Source of the DNA: Xanthobacteraceae bacterium 501b
Lineage (GTDB): Bacteria; Pseudomonadota; Alphaproteobacteria; Rhizobiales; Xanthobacteraceae
Assembly (NCBI GenBank): GCA_000378025.1
Contig: KB899087.1
Location: 2,294,001-2,358,000, forward strand
Length of the DNA: 64,000 nt
Reading direction: 5' to 3'
Position 1 is the first letter of the stretch; every line of letters starts with the position of its first letter. The notes under the pieces are model-generated. The model was not told the origin of the DNA. It searched no databases and was given only the letters and a program-made list of their open reading frames with translations. The translations under genes were made by a program, and so were the position numbers. Below are positions 45,441 to 62,257 of this stretch, piece after piece.

Positions 45441-46867
45441 GCCGCGCCCCCCGCCGGCACGGCATAGGGGGAGAGCTCGCGCTTGAGAAAACCGCCATCG
45501 CCGGGCTCGCCGACGATGCGGCCGTCTTCCGCCATCACCTTGCCGCGCAGCAGCGTCATGACAGGCCACCCGGTGACCGCCATGCCCTCATAAGGCGTGT
45601 AGTCGGCACCGTGATGCATCAGCTCCTGACGGATGGTTTCCTTCCGGTTGGGGTCCCACAGCACGATGTCGGCGTCGAAGCCGGGGGCGATGGAGCCCTT
45701 CTTCGGGTAAAGGCCGTAGATCTTGGCGTGGTTGGTCGAGGTGAGCGCGACGAACTCGTTGAGCGTGATGCGCCCTTCCACCACGCCCTTGGAGAACAGG
45801 ATCTGCATCCGCGTCTCGACGCCGGGAATGCCGTTCGGCACCCAGCGGAAGGAGGTGCGGGCCTTCGGGTTCAGCTTGCCCATCTCGCCCTCATAGAAGA
45901 AGGCGCAATGGTCGGAAGAGAAGGTCTGGAACACGCCGGTGCGGATGCCTTCCCAGATGGCGTCCCAGCTCGCATGGTCGCGTGGCGGCGGCGAGCAGAC
46001 ATACTTTCCGCCGCTCTCATCCATGTTGAGGCCCTTCATGTCCTCGGCGGTGAGCGCGACATATTGCGGGCAGGTTTCGCCATAGACCTTGAGGCCGCGC
46101 TGCTGCGCCCAGCGGATCTGCTCCATCGGCTCGCGCCCGGAGACATGCACCACCATGATTGGCACATCGGTCAGCTCGGCATGGCTGATGGCGCGGTGGG
46201 TGGCCTCGCGCTCCACCGATTGCGGGCGGGAGACGCCGTGATAATAGGGCGCCGTCTTGCCGGCCGCCTCCAGCTTCTGGGTCATGTAGCGGATGGCGTC
46301 ATAGCCCTCGCAATGGACCATGACGAGCGCGCCGCAGCCGCGCGCGCAGTCGAACACTTCCAGCAACTGGCGATCGTTCAGCACCAGGTCGTCATAGGTC
46401 ATGAACACCTTGAACGAGGTGTAGCCGTCGCCCACCAGTGCCGGCAGTTCCTGTCCCAGCACGCTGGCCGAAGGGTCGGAAATGATGAGGTGGAAGCCGT
46501 AGTCGCAATAGCATCTGCCCTCGGCTTCCTTGTGATAGTCCATCACGCTCTGGCGCAGGCTGGCGCCGCGCGGCTGCAGCGCGAAGGGCAGCACCGTGGT
46601 GTTGCCGCCGGCAATGGCGGAACGGGTGCCACTCTCGAAATCATCCGCCATCGCCGGCCCGCCAAAGGCCGGCTGGGCGAGGTGCACATGGCTGTCGATG
46701 CCGCCGGGCATGACGAGAAGCCCCGAGGCGTCGATCACCTTGGCGCCGCCGGTCAGGCTCTCGGCCACCGCCACGATGCGCCCGTCGCGGATGCCGACAT
46801 CGGCGCGCACCGTGTCCGAGGCGGTGACGACAGTGCCACCGCGTATGACCGTATCGAATTCGCTCAT
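45437..46867 (-). CDS. hydA: D-hydantoinase/dihydropyrimidinase
   Basis: 476 residues. Binuclear metalloamidohydrolase: H60-x-H62 (GIDSHVHL), carbamylatable K153 (SFKVFMTY), H185 (VMVHCEG), H241 (VVHVSGREP) and D319 (SSDHCAFF). All five ligands are present. It hydrolyses the ring of dihydropyrimidines, hydantoins or similar cyclic imides/ureides to N-carbamoyl acids. The N-carbamoyl amidase that normally follows is not in the cluster, which instead has SDRs and an AllA-like lyase. Central enzyme of the island. Confidence 0.95.
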   Translation of the reverse strand: MSEFDTVIRGGTVVTASDTVRADVGIRDGRIVAVAESLTGGAKVIDASGLLVMPGGIDSHVHLAQPAFGGPAMADDFESGTRSAIAGGNTTVLPFALQPRGASLRQSVMDYHKEAEGRCYCDYGFHLIISDPSASVLGQELPALVGDGYTSFKVFMTYDDLVLNDRQLLEVFDCARGCGALVMVHCEGYDAIRYMTQKLEAAGKTAPYYHGVSRPQSVEREATHRAISHAELTDVPIMVVHVSGREPMEQIRWAQQRGLKVYGETCPQYVALTAEDMKGLNMDESGGKYVCSPPPRDHASWDAIWEGIRTGVFQTFSSDHCAFFYEGEMGKLNPKARTSFRWVPNGIPGVETRMQILFSKGVVEGRITLNEFVALTSTNHAKIYGLYPKKGSIAPGFDADIVLWDPNRKETIRQELMHHGADYTPYEGMAVTGWPVMTLLRGKVMAEDGRIVGEPGDGGFLKRELSPYAVPAGGAA

Positions 46868-46903
46868 GGGCGCCTCGCTGGATGCGTTGGGTAAGAAACG
46901 GGA

Positions 46904-54330: not shown

Positions 54331-55047
54331 CTAGCCTTCCGTCGCCGGATGGATGTGCGGGTGCGCGTGGGTATGGGCGTGGGCGTGGGTGTGCAGCGCG
54401 GCCGGGGAGAGGTGGCCGTTTTCGATCGCCATCGCCCGTGTCGCCAGTTCGGCGATGAAGCCGTCATCATGCGACACCAGCAGCATGGCGCCGGGAAAAG
54501 CGTGCAGCGCCGTACGCAGCCGCCTTCCGTTCTCGGCGTCGACGCCGTTGGTGGGCTCGTCCAGCAGCAGCACGTCGGGTTTCATCGCCAGCAGTCCGGC
54601 GAGGCAGACGAGGCGCTTTTCGCCGCCGGAAAGCCGATGGCTGATACGCGACGCCAGCGCGCCGATGCCCAGCATCGTCAGCACCTCCTCGGCCCGGCGA
54701 AAGGCCTCTGCCTGGGTGCAGCCGAGATTAAGAGGGCCGAAGGCGACATCCTCGATCACGCTCGGGCAGAACAGCTGGTCGTCGCTGTCCTGGAACAGAT
54801 AGCCGATGCGCGGGCGCAGGGCGCGGAAGTCGCGTTCGCTCCGGCAGGACGTGCCGAACAGCCGGACCTGCCCGGCGCTTGGGCGCTCCAGCCCGACAAT
54901 GGTGCGCAGCAACGTGGTCTTGCCCGCCCCATTCGGGCCGACAATAGCCAGCCGCTCGCCCGCGGCGAGGGCGAGATTAACCGCGCGCAGCACGGCCGCA
55001 CCGTCACGGGCGACGGTGACATCCTCAAGGGCGAGCAGCGCGTTCAT
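54331..55047 (-). CDS. nikO: Nickel ECF transporter ATPase NikO with C-terminal His tail
   Basis: 238 residues. CbiO/NikO ATPase: Walker A VGPNGAGKTT, Q-loop FQDSDDQLFCPSV, signature LSGGEKRLVCLAG and Walker B VLLLDEPTNGVD. The C-terminus carries eight His at alternate positions (219-233), which would bind nickel or cobalt. It energises the NikMLQ membrane complex. ATG 55047 overlaps the nikQ stop (ATGA). Last gene of nikKMLQO. Confidence 0.93.
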   Translation of the reverse strand: MNALLALEDVTVARDGAAVLRAVNLALAAGERLAIVGPNGAGKTTLLRTIVGLERPSAGQVRLFGTSCRSERDFRALRPRIGYLFQDSDDQLFCPSVIEDVAFGPLNLGCTQAEAFRRAEEVLTMLGIGALASRISHRLSGGEKRLVCLAGLLAMKPDVLLLDEPTNGVDAENGRRLRTALHAFPGAMLLVSHDDGFIAELATRAMAIENGHLSPAALHTHAHAHTHAHPHIHPATEG

Positions 55048-55775
55048 AGCCGGTCCGCCATCGTCACCGCGAGACCGAAGACCAGCGCGGCACAGAAGCC
55101 CGCCCAGTCGCGCGCCGTGGGGGACGGCGGTGCCAGGCGGGGAAAGCGACCTTCATAGCCCCGGCAGCGCATGGCCTCCTCGACACGCTGCGCCCGCTCC
55201 AGCGCCCGCACCAGCAGCATGCCGAGGAGATGGCCATAGCTGCGCCAGCTGTGGCGGTTCGTGCCGGGGCGGAACCCGCGCATCCGCATCGCTTCCTGCA
55301 GCCGCCGCGCCTCGTCGCGGATCAGCGAGAGATAGCGCGCCGTGAGCACGAACAGGCGCACGAGAACCTCAGGCACATAAAGCCCGCGCAGGGCGGCGCC
55401 GAGCCGCACCGGCTCGACCGCGCCCAACAGCGCCGTGAGCGCCAGAACTGATGCGGAAACCTTGGCTGCGATCAGCAAAGCGCGCTCCATGCCCTCGACG
55501 CTGGCGGTCAGCGGGCCGAGGGAAAACAGCGGCTGGCCCGCCATCGTGAAGGGAAGCGTCGCGAACAGAAGCAGCAGGAAACCCTCGACATGCATCAGCC
55601 GCCGCCAGAGCCGGGCATCGGGCCGGCGCCAGGCGGCAACCAGACCTGCCACAGTGAGCGCCGCCAACGCCACGGGAAGCGTGCGCAGTTGCGATACGCA
55701 GGCGATGAAGATGAAAGCGGCGACGAGGCGCAGGCGCAGGTCGCATGCCGGACCCTGCGGTGTCGCCACCGTCAT
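55044..55775 (-). CDS. nikQ: Nickel ECF transporter transmembrane coupling protein NikQ
   Basis: 243 residues. CbiQ/EcfT fold with several helices and the two cytoplasmic coupling helices marked by EAMRMRGFRPG and EAMRCRGYEG (Ala-Arg-Gly motifs). Links NikO to the substrate-binding NikM. ATG 55775 overlaps the nikL stop (ATGA). Confidence 0.92.
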   Translation of the reverse strand: MTVATPQGPACDLRLRLVAAFIFIACVSQLRTLPVALAALTVAGLVAAWRRPDARLWRRLMHVEGFLLLLFATLPFTMAGQPLFSLGPLTASVEGMERALLIAAKVSASVLALTALLGAVEPVRLGAALRGLYVPEVLVRLFVLTARYLSLIRDEARRLQEAMRMRGFRPGTNRHSWRSYGHLLGMLLVRALERAQRVEEAMRCRGYEGRFPRLAPPSPTARDWAGFCAALVFGLAVTMADRL

Positions 55776-56317
55776 GCCCGCCGCCCGCGCGCCCACAGGC
55801 CGATGCCGGCGAGGCCGAGAATAAGGAAGACACCGGAAAGGATGTCGGCATAGCGCAAGCGCGCATCCATTTGTTCGATCCGCTCCATCAACGGCGCCAC
55901 CTGCCGCTGCACCGCCGACTCGACCAGCGAGGCAAGGCGGGCGTCTGGGTCGATCGGGGCCAGGCTGTCCGTCGGCAGCGCCGGGGCGGCGACCACCTCT
56001 CCCCCGAAGCGCGAGGCCGGCAGCGTCACCGAGGCGATATGCCCCTCGCGCGTGTCGACCGTCACCGTGGCGTCCGTGGGCGACTGCGGCACAGGGAAGG
56101 CGAAGCGCCCCTCCCCGTCCGTTGTCCCCGAAGCGATCGGCCCGCCGGCGGCATCCCGGGCCACCCACGCCGTCTGCGCCGCGCGACCGCCACCGATGAA
56201 GAAGGCGTAGCCCTTCACCTCTGCGCCTTCCACCGTGGCGAAGACCTTCAGCTTGTGCGCCTGCGCCGCGCCGGCAAAGGCCAGCACCAGCAGCAACGCC
56301 GTCAGCAGACGGATCAT
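55772..56317 (-). CDS. nikL: Nickel transporter accessory protein NikL
   Basis: 181 residues. Signal peptide cleaved before or near A-H-K-L, leaving an N-terminal His typical of the NikL/NikK accessory proteins, then a DUF4198-like beta domain (LKVFATVEGAEVKGYAFFIGGGRAAQ). A C-terminal helix ~165-178 anchors it in the membrane. Assists nickel delivery to NikM in nikKMLQO systems. Starts inside the nikM stop (ATGA). Confidence 0.87.
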   Translation of the reverse strand: MIRLLTALLLVLAFAGAAQAHKLKVFATVEGAEVKGYAFFIGGGRAAQTAWVARDAAGGPIASGTTDGEGRFAFPVPQSPTDATVTVDTREGHIASVTLPASRFGGEVVAAPALPTDSLAPIDPDARLASLVESAVQRQVAPLMERIEQMDARLRYADILSGVFLILGLAGIGLWARGRRA

Positions 56318-56928
56318 GGCGCGACCGGGCGCAGCGCCTCGGGCTGCACGCGGGCGAGGAAGGAGACGATGGCGGCGGTGACGAAGGCCTCCACGAGGGC
56401 GAGCGGCAGATAGGTGGCGATCACCACGCGGGCCGCCGGCGTATAGTCGCTCGACGACAGCCACAGCGACAGGGCGACGAGCCCTCCCGTTCCCAGCACA
56501 GAAAGTCCTCCGGCCAGCGCGCCGGCCGCCAGCCGCACCGAAGGCCGCGCGGTGGCGCGGATCAGCGGCCCCAGCGCGAGCCCGCACAGCACCCCCGGCA
56601 GCGCGATGTTCACCGTGTTCACCCCGAGCGTCGTCAGCCCGCCGAACCCGAATAGCAGTGCCTGCAACAACAGCGCCACCAGCACGGCGAGAAAGGCGGC
56701 GGTGCCGAGCATCACCCCCATCAGCCCCGCCAGCAGCAGGTGCACGCTCGACGGCCCCACCGGCACCGCCACCAGCGACCCCGCGAAGAACGCCGCCGCC
56801 AATATGGCGGTGCGCGGGATCATCCGGTCGTCGAGCCGCCGCAGCCCCAGCGCCACACCGCCGGCGGCCAGGAGCCCCCCGGCGACGAGCACGGGCGCGG
56901 ATAGAAGGCCGTCGGGAATATGTGCCAT
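56314..56928 (-). CDS. nikM: Nickel ECF transporter substrate-specific subunit NikM
   Basis: 204 residues with about seven helices. N-terminus MAHIPDGLLSAP is the CbiM/NikM metal-entry motif; after Met removal His is the second residue and, in the family, coordinates the metal. PVGPSSVHLLLAGLMGVMLG and GLTTLGVNTVNIALPGVLCG are the expected blocks with the metal-lining His and Asn. The membrane receptor for Ni(2+) (or Co(2+)). Confidence 0.94.
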   Translation of the reverse strand: MAHIPDGLLSAPVLVAGGLLAAGGVALGLRRLDDRMIPRTAILAAAFFAGSLVAVPVGPSSVHLLLAGLMGVMLGTAAFLAVLVALLLQALLFGFGGLTTLGVNTVNIALPGVLCGLALGPLIRATARPSVRLAAGALAGGLSVLGTGGLVALSLWLSSSDYTPAARVVIATYLPLALVEAFVTAAIVSFLARVQPEALRPVAP

Positions 56929-56932
56929 CCGT

Positions 56933-57718
56933 CTACTTCCCGGCCCCCATATCGGTCGCCTTCACCCAGATCAGCGCGCCGTCTTCCACCGGCACCTCTT
57001 TGCCCTCGGGCGAGGTCATCGGCGTGTCGCCATCCAGCAGCGCGGCGAAGCCCCACCAGCCGGCGCGCGGCATCGCATAATGGAAGGTGCCGTTGGCGTC
57101 GGCCTTCAGCACCTGCGTCACGAATGCGTCGTTCGGCGGCGTGACCGTGCCGTCATTGACGAACTCGACCTCGACTTCGGCGAAGGGCACCGGCTTGCCG
57201 GCCTTCAGCACGACGCCGGAGAAGAGATTGCCCGTCCACAGCCCGGTCGGCCGGGTGAGCGGCTGGATCTCCACCGGCAGCCCGACCAGTTCGTCCCAGC
57301 CCTCGCCCGAGGCGTAGCTGTCGACGATCACCTTGGAATAGTGGACGATGTACTTGCCTTCCGAAGGCTCCCAATAGGGCTGCGGCTCGACATAGAAAAT
57401 CGCCGCGCCCGGCTCCTTCAGCTCATAGCTCAGCGCCCAGGCGCTCTTGCCGTCGACCGGCTTTTCGCTGATCTGGCCGAGGAGGTCGGTGGTGGTGCCG
57501 CCCGCCAGCACGCCCGCCTTGGCTGGCTTCTTCATCTCCATCACCGGCCCGCCCTCGACCGGATGGGTGAACACCATGTCGATAGTCACCATCCCGCCGT
57601 CCGGCAGCACGTCGGTGGAGGGGATGATCTCCTGGAAATGCGCCCGCGCCGGCGCCGCGCCAAGCGGCAGGGCAAGGGCGGCGAAAGCGACGAGGCCGGC
57701 CTGGAAGCGACGGGGCAT
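56933..57718 (-). CDS. nikK: Nickel transporter periplasmic component NikK (DUF4198)
   Basis: 261 residues. Signal peptide ends AAPARA-HFQEIIPS, so the mature protein starts with or next to His. DUF4198 domain: VTIDMVFTHPVEGGPVMEM and PNDAFVTQVLKADANGTFHYAMPRAGWWGFAALLD. NikK is the soluble or tethered component of nikKMLQO systems. First gene of the operon; its start lies 13 bp from the NikR-type operator, whose arm overlaps the ribosome site region. AAAGGA precedes ATG. Confidence 0.9.
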   Translation of the reverse strand: MPRRFQAGLVAFAALALPLGAAPARAHFQEIIPSTDVLPDGGMVTIDMVFTHPVEGGPVMEMKKPAKAGVLAGGTTTDLLGQISEKPVDGKSAWALSYELKEPGAAIFYVEPQPYWEPSEGKYIVHYSKVIVDSYASGEGWDELVGLPVEIQPLTRPTGLWTGNLFSGVVLKAGKPVPFAEVEVEFVNDGTVTPPNDAFVTQVLKADANGTFHYAMPRAGWWGFAALLDGDTPMTSPEGKEVPVEDGALIWVKATDMGAGK

Positions 57719-57727
57719 GCAGCGTCC

Positions 57728-57761
57728 TTTGTATGAATTACGTTATGAAAAATCATACAAA
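57728..57761. promoter_or_regulatory. NikR operator (GTATGA-N16-TCATAC)
   Basis: TTTGTATGA (57728-57736) and TCATACAAA (57753-57761) are exact inverted arms separated by 16 bp. This is the consensus GTATGA-N16-TCATAC of Escherichia coli NikR, extended by three matching bases on each side. It lies between the nikK start (57718) and nikR start (57863) and is well placed to repress nikK and perhaps nikR. Confidence 0.88.
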
Positions 57762-57862
57762 CGATACTCTGCCTCCGGCAAGGCCAAAATCCCATCCCTG
57801 GGGAAATTCTTGCCGGGATCAGGGTGATAACCTAACCTCACCGCATTCGGCCGGGAGCTCTC

Positions 57863-58336
57863 ATGCAGCGGATCACCATCGCCATCGACGACGATCTGGC
57901 CGCCCAGCTGGATGGCTTCATCCAGGAGAGCGGCGCCGCGAACCGCTCCGAGGCGATACGCGATTTGGTGCGCCGCGGCCTCTCCGCCCGCCCGGACGGT
58001 CCCGCGCACGCTTCCTGCTTCGGCGTCATCAGCTGCGCCATCGACCAGTCGGTGCGCAATCTCGCGGCCCGGGTGCCGCAGGGCCGGCTCGACCGTCACG
58101 ATCAGACGGTCGCCGCCCTTTCGGTGCCGCTCGATCACTCGACCTCGGTCGATGTGACGGTGATGCGCGGGCAGGTCGGCGACATCGCCGCCTATGCGCA
58201 GGCGCTGTTTCTGGAGCGCGGCGTGATGCATGGCGCGCTCAGCCTCATCCCGGTAACTGAGGACAAGGCTCCTCACGTCCACAATCAGGGCTCCCCGCAC
58301 GCGCACACGCATCTGCGGGTGAAGAGCGGGTTCTAG
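57863..58336 (+). CDS. nikR: NikR-like ribbon-helix-helix regulator with non-canonical metal site
   Basis: 157 residues. The N-terminus MQRITIAIDDDLAAQLDGFIQESGAANRSEAIRDLVRRGL is a standard NikR DNA-binding domain, and the C-terminal ACT-like fold aligns without gaps. But the nickel ligands of the E. coli protein are all replaced: H76 by Leu, H87 by Ser, H89 by Pro and C95 by Ser. The C-terminal tail instead has His at 138, 140, 146, 148 and 150. Divergent from nikKMLQO and next to a consensus NikR operator, so it probably still regulates nickel uptake through a different sensing mode. Confidence 0.9.
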   Translation: MQRITIAIDDDLAAQLDGFIQESGAANRSEAIRDLVRRGLSARPDGPAHASCFGVISCAIDQSVRNLAARVPQGRLDRHDQTVAALSVPLDHSTSVDVTVMRGQVGDIAAYAQALFLERGVMHGALSLIPVTEDKAPHVHNQGSPHAHTHLRVKSGF

Positions 58337-58341
58337 AACGG

Positions 58342-58377
58342 AAAAAGGCGCGCTCGACGGGAGCGCGCCTTCTTCAT
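58342..58377. terminator. Bidirectional terminator between nikR and the YeaQ-type gene
   Basis: AAGGCGCGCTC (58345-58355) and GAGCGCGCCTT (58361-58371) form an 11-bp stem with a five-base loop, flanked by A5 on the left and TTCTTCATTT on the right. It serves nikR on the plus strand and the convergent small membrane protein on the minus strand. Confidence 0.85.
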
Positions 58378-58759: not shown

Positions 58760-60289
58760 TCACGCCGTCGGCGCGGGCGCCTGCTGGCCGATGGCGCGAC
58801 CGGCCGCGACGGGCCGCTCGAGCCCGGCATGGGCGGCGGCGATCACCGAAACGGTCGCGCGCACCTGCACGGCGGCCGGGGCTGCGCGGCCGGCCTTGCT
58901 ATCGACATGCAGCAGCATATGCTCTCCGGTGGCGATCTCGCGGCGCTCGGGACCGGCATAGAGCCGGTGGAACACATGCAGCCGCTTCTCATCCGTACCG
59001 AGGATCTGGGTGGTGCAGACCAGCACCTCGCCCAGCTTCGCCTCGTCGAGATGCCGCAGATGGGTTTCCACCGTGTAGTAGCTGTGCCCGCCCTCGACAT
59101 AGGCGAGATCGACGCCGATCAGCCGCAGCAGCGCGTCGGTAGCGTCGCCGAACACCTGGAGATAGCGGTGCTCGGTCATGTGGCCATTATAGTCGATCCA
59201 GGCCGGCGAGACGCGGGCCTCCACCAGCGCCAGCGGTGCGGAGGTGTCGGGGGCCGGCGCGGCGCCCGCCTGTGCCCACAGGCGCTGCTCGAACTCCTTG
59301 AGGAGCTTGCCCGCCCCCCAGCCCTCCCCGCCCTGCCCCGCCTTCAGCGCCTGCACGATGCCGACAAGGTTCTCGTCGCGGATGCGCTCCAGTTCGCGAA
59401 TGGAGAGGCCGGCCGCCTGCGCATCGGATTGCGCGCCGATCTTCTCCACCAGCGCGTCGTCGAGGTCGACCACATCGGTGAGCTTGGTCCACGGCCATGC
59501 GAGGCACGGACCGAACTGGGCGAGGAAATGGCGCATGCCGGCTTCCCCGCCGGCGATACGGTAGGTCTGGAACAGGCCCATCTGCGCCCAGCGCAGGCCG
59601 AAGGAATAGCGGATCACGTCGTCGAGCGTCTCGACGTCGCAAATATCGTCCTTGATCAGCCACAGCGCCTCGCGCCACAGCGCCTCCAGCAGCCGGTCGC
59701 CGACAAAGGCTTCGATCTCGCGGGCGATTACCACGCCCTTCATGCCGATGGCGTCGAGCACCGCCTTGGCCCGCGCAACCGTGTCCGACGTGGTTGACGC
59801 GCCGCCGACGATCTCCACCAGCGGCAGCAGATAGACCGGGTTGTAGGGGTGGGCGACGAAGAGCCGGCCGGGATGGGTCAGCCCCGCCTGAAGATCGGTC
59901 GGCTTGAGGCCGGAGGTGGAAGAGCCGAGCAGCGCGTCCGCCGGCGCGGCGGCGTCGATCTCCGCCAGCACGCGGCGCTTGAGGTCGAGCCGCTCGGGCA
60001 CGCTCTCCTGCACCCATTGCGCGTCCGCCACCGCCTCCGCCACACTGACGCAGAAGGTCAGCCGGCCGCGCTTGGGCAGCGGCGCGCCCGTGAGCAGACC
60101 ATAGGCGCGCTCGGCATTGGCCAGCACCTCGGCGACAATGCGTTGCGCGTCGGGGTGCGGATCGAACACCTTCACGTCGATGCCGGCGAGCAGAAAGCGG
60201 GCGATCCAGCCGCCGCCGATGACTCCGCCGCCGATGCAAGCGGCGCGGGAGATGGGGGCAAGGCCCCCGGGAAGGGTCGCCGTCATCAT
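58760..60289 (-). CDS. lcdH: L-carnitine dehydrogenase fused to a thioesterase
   Basis: 509 residues. The N-terminal ~320 residues are a 3-hydroxyacyl-CoA dehydrogenase-type NAD enzyme (CIGGGVIGGGWIARFLLAG; HPYNPVYLLPLVEIVGG), matching carnitine 3-dehydrogenase. From ~351 a hotdog thioesterase follows with the DYNGHMTEHRYLQVFGDA motif. The fusion is the known dehydrogenase/betainyl-CoA thioesterase of carnitine catabolism: it oxidises carnitine to 3-dehydrocarnitine and releases betaine from its CoA ester. Followed upstream by the BKACE gene, 7 bp away. Confidence 0.9.
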   Translation of the reverse strand: MMTATLPGGLAPISRAACIGGGVIGGGWIARFLLAGIDVKVFDPHPDAQRIVAEVLANAERAYGLLTGAPLPKRGRLTFCVSVAEAVADAQWVQESVPERLDLKRRVLAEIDAAAPADALLGSSTSGLKPTDLQAGLTHPGRLFVAHPYNPVYLLPLVEIVGGASTTSDTVARAKAVLDAIGMKGVVIAREIEAFVGDRLLEALWREALWLIKDDICDVETLDDVIRYSFGLRWAQMGLFQTYRIAGGEAGMRHFLAQFGPCLAWPWTKLTDVVDLDDALVEKIGAQSDAQAAGLSIRELERIRDENLVGIVQALKAGQGGEGWGAGKLLKEFEQRLWAQAGAAPAPDTSAPLALVEARVSPAWIDYNGHMTEHRYLQVFGDATDALLRLIGVDLAYVEGGHSYYTVETHLRHLDEAKLGEVLVCTTQILGTDEKRLHVFHRLYAGPERREIATGEHMLLHVDSKAGRAAPAAVQVRATVSVIAAAHAGLERPVAAGRAIGQQAPAPTA

Positions 60290-60296
60290 CGTCTCC

Positions 60297-61199
60297 TCAG
60301 CGCTTCACCAGCTTCAGCTTCTCGCGCACCTCGGCCGGGCCGATGATCCGCGCCCCCATATTCGTCAACACGTTAGCGGCCTTCTCGACCAGCTGGGCGT
60401 TAGTGGCGAGCTGGCCCTTGCCGACATAGAGGTTGTCCTCCAGCCCGACCCGCACATTGCCGCCCGCCAGCACTGCCGCGGCGGGATAAGCCATGGCGTT
60501 GCGGCCGATGGAGAAGGCGGAGAAGGTCCACCCGGCCGGCACATTATTGACCATCGCCATAAAGGTGTTGAGATCGTCAGGCGCGCCCCAGGGAATGCCC
60601 ATGCACAGCTGGATCAGCACCGGGTCCTCGATCAGCCCTTCTTCGGCGAGTTGCTTGGCAAACCAGAGGTGCCCGGTGTCGAACGCCTCGATTTCGGGGC
60701 GCACGCCCAGCGCCGTCATCTGCCGCGCCATCTCGCGCAGCATGGACGGCGTGTTGGTCATGACATAGTCGCCGAGATTGAAGTTCATCGTGCCGCAGTC
60801 GAGCGTGCAGATTTCCGGCAGGCATTGCGCGACATGGGCGACGCGCTCGGTGGCGCCGGCCATGTCGGTGGCTTTCTCGTTGAGTGGAAACGGAGCCTCG
60901 ACGCCGCCGAAAACGAGATCGCCGCCCATGCCGGCGGTCAGGTTCAGCACCACGTCGACCTCGGCCGAGCGGATGCGGTCGGTCACTTCGCGATAGAGCT
61001 CGAGGCGGCGCGAGGCGGCGCCGGTCTCGGGCTCGCGCACATGGCAGTGCACCACCGCCGCGCCGGCCTTGGCGGCGTCGATCGCACTGTCGGCGATCTC
61101 TCGCGGGGTGATCGGCACATGGGCGGAGCGGCCGGTGGTGTCGCCGGCGCCGGTGACGGCGCAGGTGATGAAGACATCGCGATTCATCTGCAGGGGCAT
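60297..61199 (-). CDS. BKACE-family (DUF849) 3-dehydrocarnitine cleavage enzyme
   Basis: 300 residues. TIM barrel with the zinc-binding H51-C-H53 in VVHCHVRE and Glu254 in VRVGLEDNLYVG, both expected in 3-keto acid cleavage enzymes. The family swaps acetyl-CoA onto a beta-keto acid; next to lcdH the substrate is most likely 3-dehydrocarnitine, giving acetoacetate and betainyl-CoA, which the fused thioesterase then hydrolyses. Start ATG 61199; an upstream in-frame start at 61256 is weaker. Divergent from the regulator. Confidence 0.92.
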   Translation of the reverse strand: MPLQMNRDVFITCAVTGAGDTTGRSAHVPITPREIADSAIDAAKAGAAVVHCHVREPETGAASRRLELYREVTDRIRSAEVDVVLNLTAGMGGDLVFGGVEAPFPLNEKATDMAGATERVAHVAQCLPEICTLDCGTMNFNLGDYVMTNTPSMLREMARQMTALGVRPEIEAFDTGHLWFAKQLAEEGLIEDPVLIQLCMGIPWGAPDDLNTFMAMVNNVPAGWTFSAFSIGRNAMAYPAAAVLAGGNVRVGLEDNLYVGKGQLATNAQLVEKAANVLTNMGARIIGPAEVREKLKLVKR

Positions 61200-61250
61200 G
61201 GCGGGGTTCCTGAAAGCGTGAACGGAGCTTGACGGCAAAGCGAAGTCGTG

Positions 61251-61268
61251 ACGCAACTATTTACGCAA
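61251..61268. promoter_or_regulatory. Possible AraC-type direct repeat
   Basis: ACGCAA occurs at 61251-61256 and 61263-61268, 12 bp apart (about one helical turn), in the 92-bp gap between the BKACE and regulator genes. Direct repeats spaced this way are typical of AraC-family sites. Suggestive only. Confidence 0.35.
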
Positions 61269-61291
61269 TCGATTTTTCATTCTGCGAAGCC

Positions 61292-62257
61292 ATGATCTTT
61301 GCCCCCGCCGACGACGCGCTCGATGTCACGCTGCTGCTGTTTCCCGGCCTGTCGCTGCTCTCTCTGGCGGCGACGCTGGACCCGATGCGCGGCGCCAACC
61401 GCGTGCTGGGGCGGCTGGCCTTTCGCTGGAAGCTGGTGTCGATGGACGGCCAGATGCCGACAGCCAGCTGCGGCCTGCCGATCCCGGTGGACGGCGCCTT
61501 CGATGCCGGCGCGCGGCAGGACGTGCTGATGGTGGTGGCCGCCTTCGAGGCGGCGCGCTTCGCCACCCCGCCGATCCTCAAGGCGATCCGCGCCGGCGCC
61601 AAGCGCTCGTCCGCCACGGGCGGCATCGAGTCGGGCTCATGGCTGATGGGCTTCGCCGGGCTGCTGGAGGGGCGCCGCGCCACCACCCATTGGGAGGACC
61701 TGGAGGACTTCGCCGCCCGCTTCCCCGAAACCGACGTGCAACCGGACCGCTTCGTGATCGACGAGCCGGTGTTCACGACAGGCGGGGCCACCCCGGCGCT
61801 CGACTGCATGCTGGCGCTGATCCGCGCCCGGCACGGCTATTCCGCCGCGCTCGATGTCGCCAGCCTCTACATCTATGAGGAAGTGCGCGCGGGCTCGGAC
61901 GTGCAGCCCATCGTCTCGCTCGGCCGCATTCGCCAGCACGAGCCGCGCGTGGCCGAGGCGATCCGGCTGATGGAAACCCATATCGACCGCCCGCTCACCG
62001 TAGCGGCCATTGCCCGGCGGGTGGGCGTGTCGACGCGGGGGCTGGAGACGCTGTTCGTTAAAACGGTGGATGTGTCGCCCGGCGCCTATTACGTCACGCT
62101 GCGGCTGAAGGCGGCGCGGCGGCTGGTGCTCGACACCAATCTGCCGATCGCCGACATCGCCGAGCGCACCGGCTTTTCCGCCATCGCCTCGCTGTCGCGG
62201 GCGTTCCGGCGGCAGTTCGGCGCGCCGCCCTCCGCGGCGCGCCGTCAGCGATTGTAA
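61292..62257 (+). CDS. GlxA/AraC-family regulator (CdhR-like)
   Basis: 321 residues. The N-terminal ~180 residues are a DJ-1/GATase1-like sensor domain (ALDVTLLLFPGLSLLSLAATLDPMRGAN) and the last ~100 an AraC double helix-turn-helix (PLTVAAIARRVGVSTRGLETLFVKTVDVSPGAYYVTLRLKAARRLVLDTNLPIADIAERTGF). This layout is shared by CdhR and GbdR, which activate carnitine and betaine genes in Pseudomonas. Divergent from lcdH-BKACE and convergent with the binding protein. Start ATG 61292; the frame extends back to 61229. Confidence 0.91.
   Translation: MIFAPADDALDVTLLLFPGLSLLSLAATLDPMRGANRVLGRLAFRWKLVSMDGQMPTASCGLPIPVDGAFDAGARQDVLMVVAAFEAARFATPPILKAIRAGAKRSSATGGIESGSWLMGFAGLLEGRRATTHWEDLEDFAARFPETDVQPDRFVIDEPVFTTGGATPALDCMLALIRARHGYSAALDVASLYIYEEVRAGSDVQPIVSLGRIRQHEPRVAEAIRLMETHIDRPLTVAAIARRVGVSTRGLETLFVKTVDVSPGAYYVTLRLKAARRLVLDTNLPIADIAERTGFSAIASLSRAFRRQFGAPPSAARRQRL

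Follow-up and report, generated by a model that had tools for sequence, protein, structure and literature searches.

The window analysed here, a 64,000-nucleotide stretch of the genome of Xanthobacteraceae bacterium 501b, encodes a protein whose descent and fold make it a NikR, although it lacks the metal site that defines a canonical nickel-responsive NikR. The loss of the nickel ligands is a clade-wide trait and not the mark of one decayed gene. Across the clade a C-terminal histidine tail is fixed and under purifying selection, and the gene in the window adjoins a NikR operator placed before nickel-uptake genes. Our best explanation, which we hold at about even confidence, is a NikR-descended repressor of nickel uptake that would remain nickel-responsive, its metal site having shifted from the core of the tetramer into the tail.

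Descent and fold of the protein

The gene and its parts are located as follows:

57863..58336, plus strand: nikR-like gene (ATG at 57863, stop at 58336; 157 amino acids), a member of the clade in which the canonical nickel ligands are lost
57863..57982, plus strand: ribbon-helix-helix DNA-binding domain, codons 1-40 (R3, T5, S29, E30, R33 and D34 kept; positions 23 and 25 changed)
58088..58147, plus strand: former nickel site, codons 76-95 (L76 at 58088-58090, S87 at 58121-58123, P89 at 58127-58129, S95 at 58145-58147)
58256..58333, plus strand: C-terminal tail, codons 132-157 (four histidines, H138, H140, H148 and H150, shared by all clade members; strands predicted at 121-138 and 146-153)
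58345..58371, plus strand: terminator-like hairpin 3' of nikR, a computed prediction

The domain order that marks a NikR by descent and fold, a ribbon-helix-helix domain followed by the ACT-like NikR_C, is present, with Pfam matches to RHH_1 at residues 3-39 and to NikR_C at 54-129, both above cut-off. The best PDB matches of the predicted structure are NikR proteins. E. coli NikR (1q5v) aligns with the clade profile in HMMER from residues 1-131 on 1-131 with no gaps, and residues 50-132 of the AlphaFold model superpose on residues 50-132 of the nickel-bound E. coli domain 1q5y_B with an rmsd of 1.3 Å (83/83 residues). Among the NCBIfam models, NF002815 scores the protein as a nickel-responsive NikR above its cut-off (121.4 bits, cut-off 83), although the canonical nickel site is absent; the scores for TIGR02793 (117.3 bits, cut-off 175.45) and NF003381 (80.3 bits, cut-off 105) fall below theirs. 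The possibility that the genome also encodes a canonical NikR was considered and rejected, since the single NikR_C match in the source genome (5.1 Mb) is the nikR of the window.

Loss of the nickel site and changes in the core

In canonical NikR, the planar four-coordinate nickel site consists of H87, H89 and C95 together with H76' from a neighbouring subunit, and in E. coli this site is the established basis of nickel sensing (PMC7055735). The window protein lacks it, with L76, S87, P89 and S95 at the same numbering both by sequence and by structure superposition. This gap-free replacement, first read from the sequence in the initial annotation, is borne out by the HMMER alignment and by the superposition on 1q5y_B, in which no other His or Cys comes to lie at the ligand positions. 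Misalignment as the cause is rejected by both comparisons.

Pooling and deduplication of homologues yielded 45 distinct variants, all alphaproteobacterial, 71 canonical proteins with the ligand set HHHC, and two others. Since H87, H89 and C95 are absent from all 45 distinct homologues, chance or a sequencing artefact is likewise rejected. The replacement L/S/P/S is shared by 30 of the 45; the remaining patterns are LSPA (6), HSPA (5), QSPS (2), LSPT (1) and HTPA (1), and H76 is lost in 39/45. The changes also reach further than the four ligands, all of them correctly named as lost from the start. Y58, H62 and E97 are, like H76, H87, H89 and C95, invariant in 71/71 canonical rows, and the variants keep them in 15/45, 5/45 and 20/45 cases, respectively, with D replacing E97 in the other 25. 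Titles and abstract openings in the open-access literature searched gave no account of a NikR without nickel ligands.

Other core positions are fixed in the variants. S57, R75, H92, L115, F116, E118, H123 and L128 are invariant in 45/45, whereas H occurs at positions 92 and 123 in just 43/71 and 45/71 canonical rows. H79, E30 and D34 do not vary across the 28 rows of alignment A1. E30 and D34, whose side chains coordinate K+ in E. coli NikR (PMC7055735), are thus kept at this low-affinity site in all 28 rows. Such constraint forms the basis of the main rival to the tail reading, in which sensing would still take place in the core, through H79, H92 and H123, through the low-affinity site (E30, D34 and the 116-121 loop) or through both, and the tail would only help. 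The fixation of R75, S57, L115, F116 and E118 fits a core rebuilt in this way. Contrary to expectation, however, clade-specific constraint did not cluster significantly near either the low-affinity site or the old nickel site (circular-shift fractions 0.39-0.42), and a core site leaves the fixed tail unexplained. We regard a rebuilt core site as unlikely, though it is the strongest of the competing readings.

Distribution and phylogeny of the variant clade

A collection scan returned 27 relatives with 50-97% identity, in Ancylobacter, Kaistia, Methylobacterium/Methylorubrum, Breoghania, Gemmobacter, Marivivens, Maritimibacter, Afifella, Pseudoroseomonas and other genera. Carriers made up 4/149 genomes in the family sample, 20/297 in the order sample, 1/385 in the class sample and 3/398 in the phylum sample, with the source genome counted in each. 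A bit-score gap (192 vs 151) separates the variants from the rest. Variant rows were chosen by a profile that includes the tail; lower-scoring hits were also inspected, and further ligand-poor groups were found there.

Clade trees were built without the ligand columns and without the tail. All 45 variants formed one clade in a tree from which L111 was left out (SH-aLRT 100), and 13 variant representatives did so in the careful tree (support 100/100, the bootstrap being not quite settled). The careful (70-row) and 128-row trees omitted L230, L110, L231, L111, L088, the RHHT/YHHT rows and rows with more than 20 gaps; rows exceeding 88% identity to one already kept were dropped from the 128-row quick tree and those exceeding 72% from the careful tree. 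For a further NikR homologue tree, duplicate rows and rows containing over 30 gaps were removed. In the careful tree, the HSPA rows lie near the clade base, with one placed higher. This mostly basal position suggests that H76 was probably the last ligand to go, perhaps more than once.

Ligand loss also occurs outside the clade. The f28 group (L204, L206, L213, L215, L201 and L200) has RQPV, LQPF or QAPR at the ligand positions and no His tail, which means that ligand loss does not require such a tail. The 70-row careful tree rejects a single origin of the variants and f28 (p-AU 0.016), and the 128-row quick tree does not (p-AU 0.578); f28 is probably a separate ligand loss, and the two losses likely had separate origins. 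Members of the f34 group (L216-L219 and L210) show HQHC, HQYC or QRPC at these positions and very long His-rich C-termini. An outlying group of NikR_C-like proteins (L111, L182, L220, L221 and L229) has RHHT or YHHT.

The C-terminal histidine tail

The tail motif HxH-x5-9-HxH-xx[VI]xxx[FL] is present in 45/45 variants vs 0/71 canonical HHHC rows. It is also absent from the 75 remaining hits, namely 59 HHHC proteins, which brings the canonical total to 0/130, and 16 other ligand-poor ones; the 45 and 71 rows were deduplicated on identical aligned sequence, and the further 59 were not. The variants have 25-39 residues after position 130 (sd 2.6), compared with 2-59 (sd 12.0) in canonical rows. 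The four histidines H138, H140, H148 and H150 are invariant, and H146 is present in 31/45. Because relatedness is higher among the variants than among the canonical rows, the apparent conservation of the variants is inflated. The pN/pS ratio is less exposed to relatedness; in a codon comparison of 12 members it was 0.28 in both the tail and the DNA-binding domain, 0.19 in the core, and higher in the two linkers (0.53 and 0.56). The tail is therefore under purifying selection.

AlphaFold, run on 89 rows as a monomer, predicts strands at 121-138 and 146-153, with block pLDDT values of 75, 76 and 86 from residue 131. For L009, a canonical control with a His-rich tail, the same 89 rows in monomer form gave no strand after residue 131 (blocks 73, 64, 65 and 78), and the pLDDT contrast between the two tails is modest. 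The predicted strands likely form a beta-hairpin, and by its register H138, H140, H146, H148 and H150 would share one face.

The proposal in the initial annotation that the His tail (138-150) may be the replacement sensor is thus the leading candidate, as the tail is diagnostic of the clade, carries four invariant histidines, is held by purifying selection and has predicted strands. The looser pattern HxH-x5-9-HxH nevertheless occurs in 29/71 canonical NikRs, in which His-rich tails are common, so that the presence of a tail does not by itself imply sensing. Some canonical NikRs (L087, L008 and L107) have a similar tail, and hence the tail could have come first.

Operator and transporter locus

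The elements on the other side of nikR are as follows:

57731..57758, no strand assigned: NikR operator GTATGA-N16-TCATAC, exact, with symmetry further out (about 57728-57761) in the source genome
57752..57781, minus strand: predicted sigma-70 promoter toward nikK; -10 TATGAT (57757-57752) overlaps an operator half-site; consensus match only
56933..57718, minus strand: nikK (DUF4198; Pfam), first in the transporter cluster and divergent from nikR
56314..56928, minus strand: nikM, CbiM family (Pfam, NCBIfam)
55787..56317, minus strand: nikL, NikL family NF058648 (NCBIfam)
55044..55790, minus strand: nikQ, CbiQ family (Pfam, NCBIfam); the range is the stretch searched, with a putative start
54331..55047, minus strand: nikO, CbiO-like ABC ATPase with a His-rich C-terminus of its own (Pfam, NCBIfam)

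The tail of the transporter ATPase NikO, encoded at 54331-54400, reads THAHAHTHAHPHIHP. On the far side of nikR, positions 58760-61200 hold what we take to be a dehydrogenase-thioesterase fusion, adjoining a gene of BKACE type and a GlxA-like regulator of the AraC family (61229-62257). This gene set is reminiscent of carnitine catabolism.

The operator lies between nikR and the divergent nikK, so that GTATGA-N16-TCATAC stands at a nickel-import operon. Its description as an exact consensus was upheld by a mismatch search against shuffled sequence, in which it is the sole match in the window at up to 2 mismatches (mean 0.42 in shuffles at the same tolerance). The source genome holds one exact copy, and three further sites with 1 mismatch have no established tie to nickel genes. 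The extra symmetric bases (TTT...AAA) noted initially are present in the source genome, but they are not conserved across the clade, and those on the nikK side likely belong to the ribosome-binding site of nikK. One promoter toward nikK is predicted, compared with a mean of 0.1 in shuffles, and the overlap between its -10 box and the operator half-site fits repression of nikKMLQO.

In the source genome, urease alpha has two strong matches and one weak, partial match; the [NiFe] hydrogenase family has none. The weak match to Urease_alpha (25.2 bits) lies at 46757-46879 on the minus strand, in a 488-aa open frame that perhaps encodes another amidohydrolase. The urease matches bear on a reading in which the tail would store nickel or hand it over, for example toward the urease pathway, and would not be the allosteric site. 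His-rich tails are frequent in NikRs with a full core site, NikO of the same cluster is also His-tailed, and the two strong urease matches would supply a destination. A mere store does not account for a tail fixed in motif and nearly in length, as given above, and we judge this function quite improbable as the explanation.

A shift in DNA recognition

Within the DNA-binding domain, position 23 is mostly R, H or K in canonical rows and mostly S or T in variants (41/45), and position 25 changes from Y (68/71 canonical rows) to A (41/45 variants). The half-sites also differ in their continuation, being mostly GTATGA-[AT][AT] (WW) for variants and mostly GTATGA-[TC]G (YG) for canonical proteins. 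G at half-site position 8 was found in 2/56 variant and 54/84 canonical half-sites, with a Fisher p of 3e-14 that is not a true probability, as the sequences are related. The DNA-binding domain, described at first as intact, does keep R3, T5, S29, E30, R33 and D34, but not positions 23 and 25. Similarly, the view that DNA recognition was conserved while the sensor was rebuilt holds for the operator core and the lost ligands, but not for the bases just inside the half-sites.

Operators and nickel-uptake targets across genomes

nikK is present in 28/45 variant loci, and 25 of these 28 have an operator within 1 mismatch of the consensus, exact in 21. Among the 17 variant loci without nikK, an exact operator was found in 3 and none in 14 within the stretch available. 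Canonical loci have an operator in 22/71; nikK accompanies 3 of these, where the operator is exact. In G084, G366, G275 and Kaistia G1141, nikR is displaced and an exact operator still precedes nikK. In G264, G293, G261 and G394, the exact operator stands before a gene for a NikA-type solute-binding protein (Pfam SBP_bac_5), whose best NCBIfam match is NikA in three and GsiB in the fourth, the scores in the three being far below cut-offs. In G416 the site precedes a nikL/nikM-like pair.

In three Methylobacterium-type genomes the gene that follows a 1-mismatch site resembles a TonB receptor; in one of the three it is divergent from urease genes. A fourth genome has such a site before a DUF4198 gene. 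These assignments draw on a Pfam run for one TonB-type receptor and the DUF4198 gene and on NCBIfam for two receptors. At L144, around 1501-1580, the 1-mismatch NikR-type site lies before a TonB-dependent receptor gene and divergent from urease genes, and this receptor is a candidate outer-membrane nickel receptor. Urease genes also adjoin L139, where they are annotated, and L044, by reading of its ORFs.

All 13 variant genomes scanned contained a site with at most 1 mismatch, exact in 7/13. A reversed-pattern control in the same genomes gave 7 1-mismatch sites on one strand in 4/13, so that some 1-mismatch sites must be due to chance. In a genus scan, no operator was found in two members without a nikR hit, and the reversed pattern gave 0 sites in 7 genomes. 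From these gene contexts, the recognised targets of the variants appear to be mostly nickel uptake, also where nikR has moved.

Operators also occur beside NikR homologues without the tail, a point against the tail reading. L110 (1507-1902), with RQPY and no tail, has an exact operator just upstream of its gene (1941), and L220, with RHHT and no tail motif, has one near its gene. The six f28 genomes had no exact operator and a 1-mismatch site in two.

The target data also bear on the alternative raised in the initial annotation, a constitutive or metal-independent repressor. Under this view the protein would repress constitutively or answer another signal, with Arg75 or other new residues mimicking the metal. 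The window protein has indeed lost all four classical ligands, and R75, which adjoins position 76, is invariant in 45/45 variants. Nonetheless, this alternative is disfavoured and rather improbable, because, with at most 12 candidates scored per genome, none of the 20 order-sample carriers had a NikR hit (E <= 1e-10) other than the variant, because the operator precedes nickel-uptake genes in much of the clade, and because the four tail histidines are invariant. Roseomonas marmotae is a counter-example to one NikR per genome, as both types are present. Its variant, annotated as a nickel-responsive NikR, is encoded on p1318-3 beside nikKMLQO and urease genes, with an operator of 2 mismatches, whereas its canonical HHHC protein is encoded on p1318-4 beside nikA-nikB-nikC, with an exact operator.

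Proposed mechanism

In the preferred reading, that of a nickel-responsive repressor with its site in the tail, we infer metal binding, nickel as the metal, allostery and repression. Sufficient intracellular nickel would lead to metal being bound by the C-terminal tail and not by the lost H76/H87/H89/C95 site. The ligands would be H138, H140, H148 and H150 on the likely beta-hairpin, joined by H146 where it occurs and possibly by H92 and H123 of the core. Metal binding would order the hairpin and favour the DNA-binding form of the tetramer, which may then occupy GTATGA-N16-TCATAC over the -10 region and shut off nikKMLQO. Two points lower our confidence in the tail reading slightly, namely the modest pLDDT contrast and the retention of operators beside proteins that have no tail.

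The evolutionary counterpart, a relocation of the sensor in which the allosteric nickel site moved to a new C-terminal His4-5 beta-hairpin with fold, operator core and regulon unchanged, is put forward tentatively and at slightly less than even confidence. Intermediate stages would then be represented by proteins that combine a canonical core with a similar tail and by early-branching members in which H76 is kept. If the tail senses metal, the clade offers a natural experiment in replacing an allosteric metal site without rewiring the regulon.

Comparison with known systems

A published phenotype of Paracoccus yeei nikR (PMC11578231) was set aside as evidence for the clade, since the plasmid NikRs of that species match at 36.6-38.2% over residues 1-130.

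With canonical NikR of E. coli, H. pylori and P. horikoshii, the variant shares the architecture and fold of RHH and NikR_C, the operator core, E30/D34 and a nickel transporter as target, and with the E. coli protein also a gap-free alignment. It differs in the loss of H87, H89 and C95 (45/45) and of H76 (39/45), in frequent changes at Y58, H62 and E97, in its conserved tail with four invariant His, and in operators of the form GTATGA-WW rather than GTATGA-YG. Canonical alphaproteobacterial NikRs with a low-complexity His-rich tail, such as L009, share HxH repeats in the tail; their HHHC core is intact and their tail length variable, and the tail of L009 is predicted as coil. The ligand-poor NikRs of f28 and f34 resemble the variant in having lost the ligands partly or wholly, with Pro recurring at position 89, and differ in being without the tail motif. 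With both types present, Roseomonas marmotae makes a direct comparison between the canonical and the variant NikR possible within one species.
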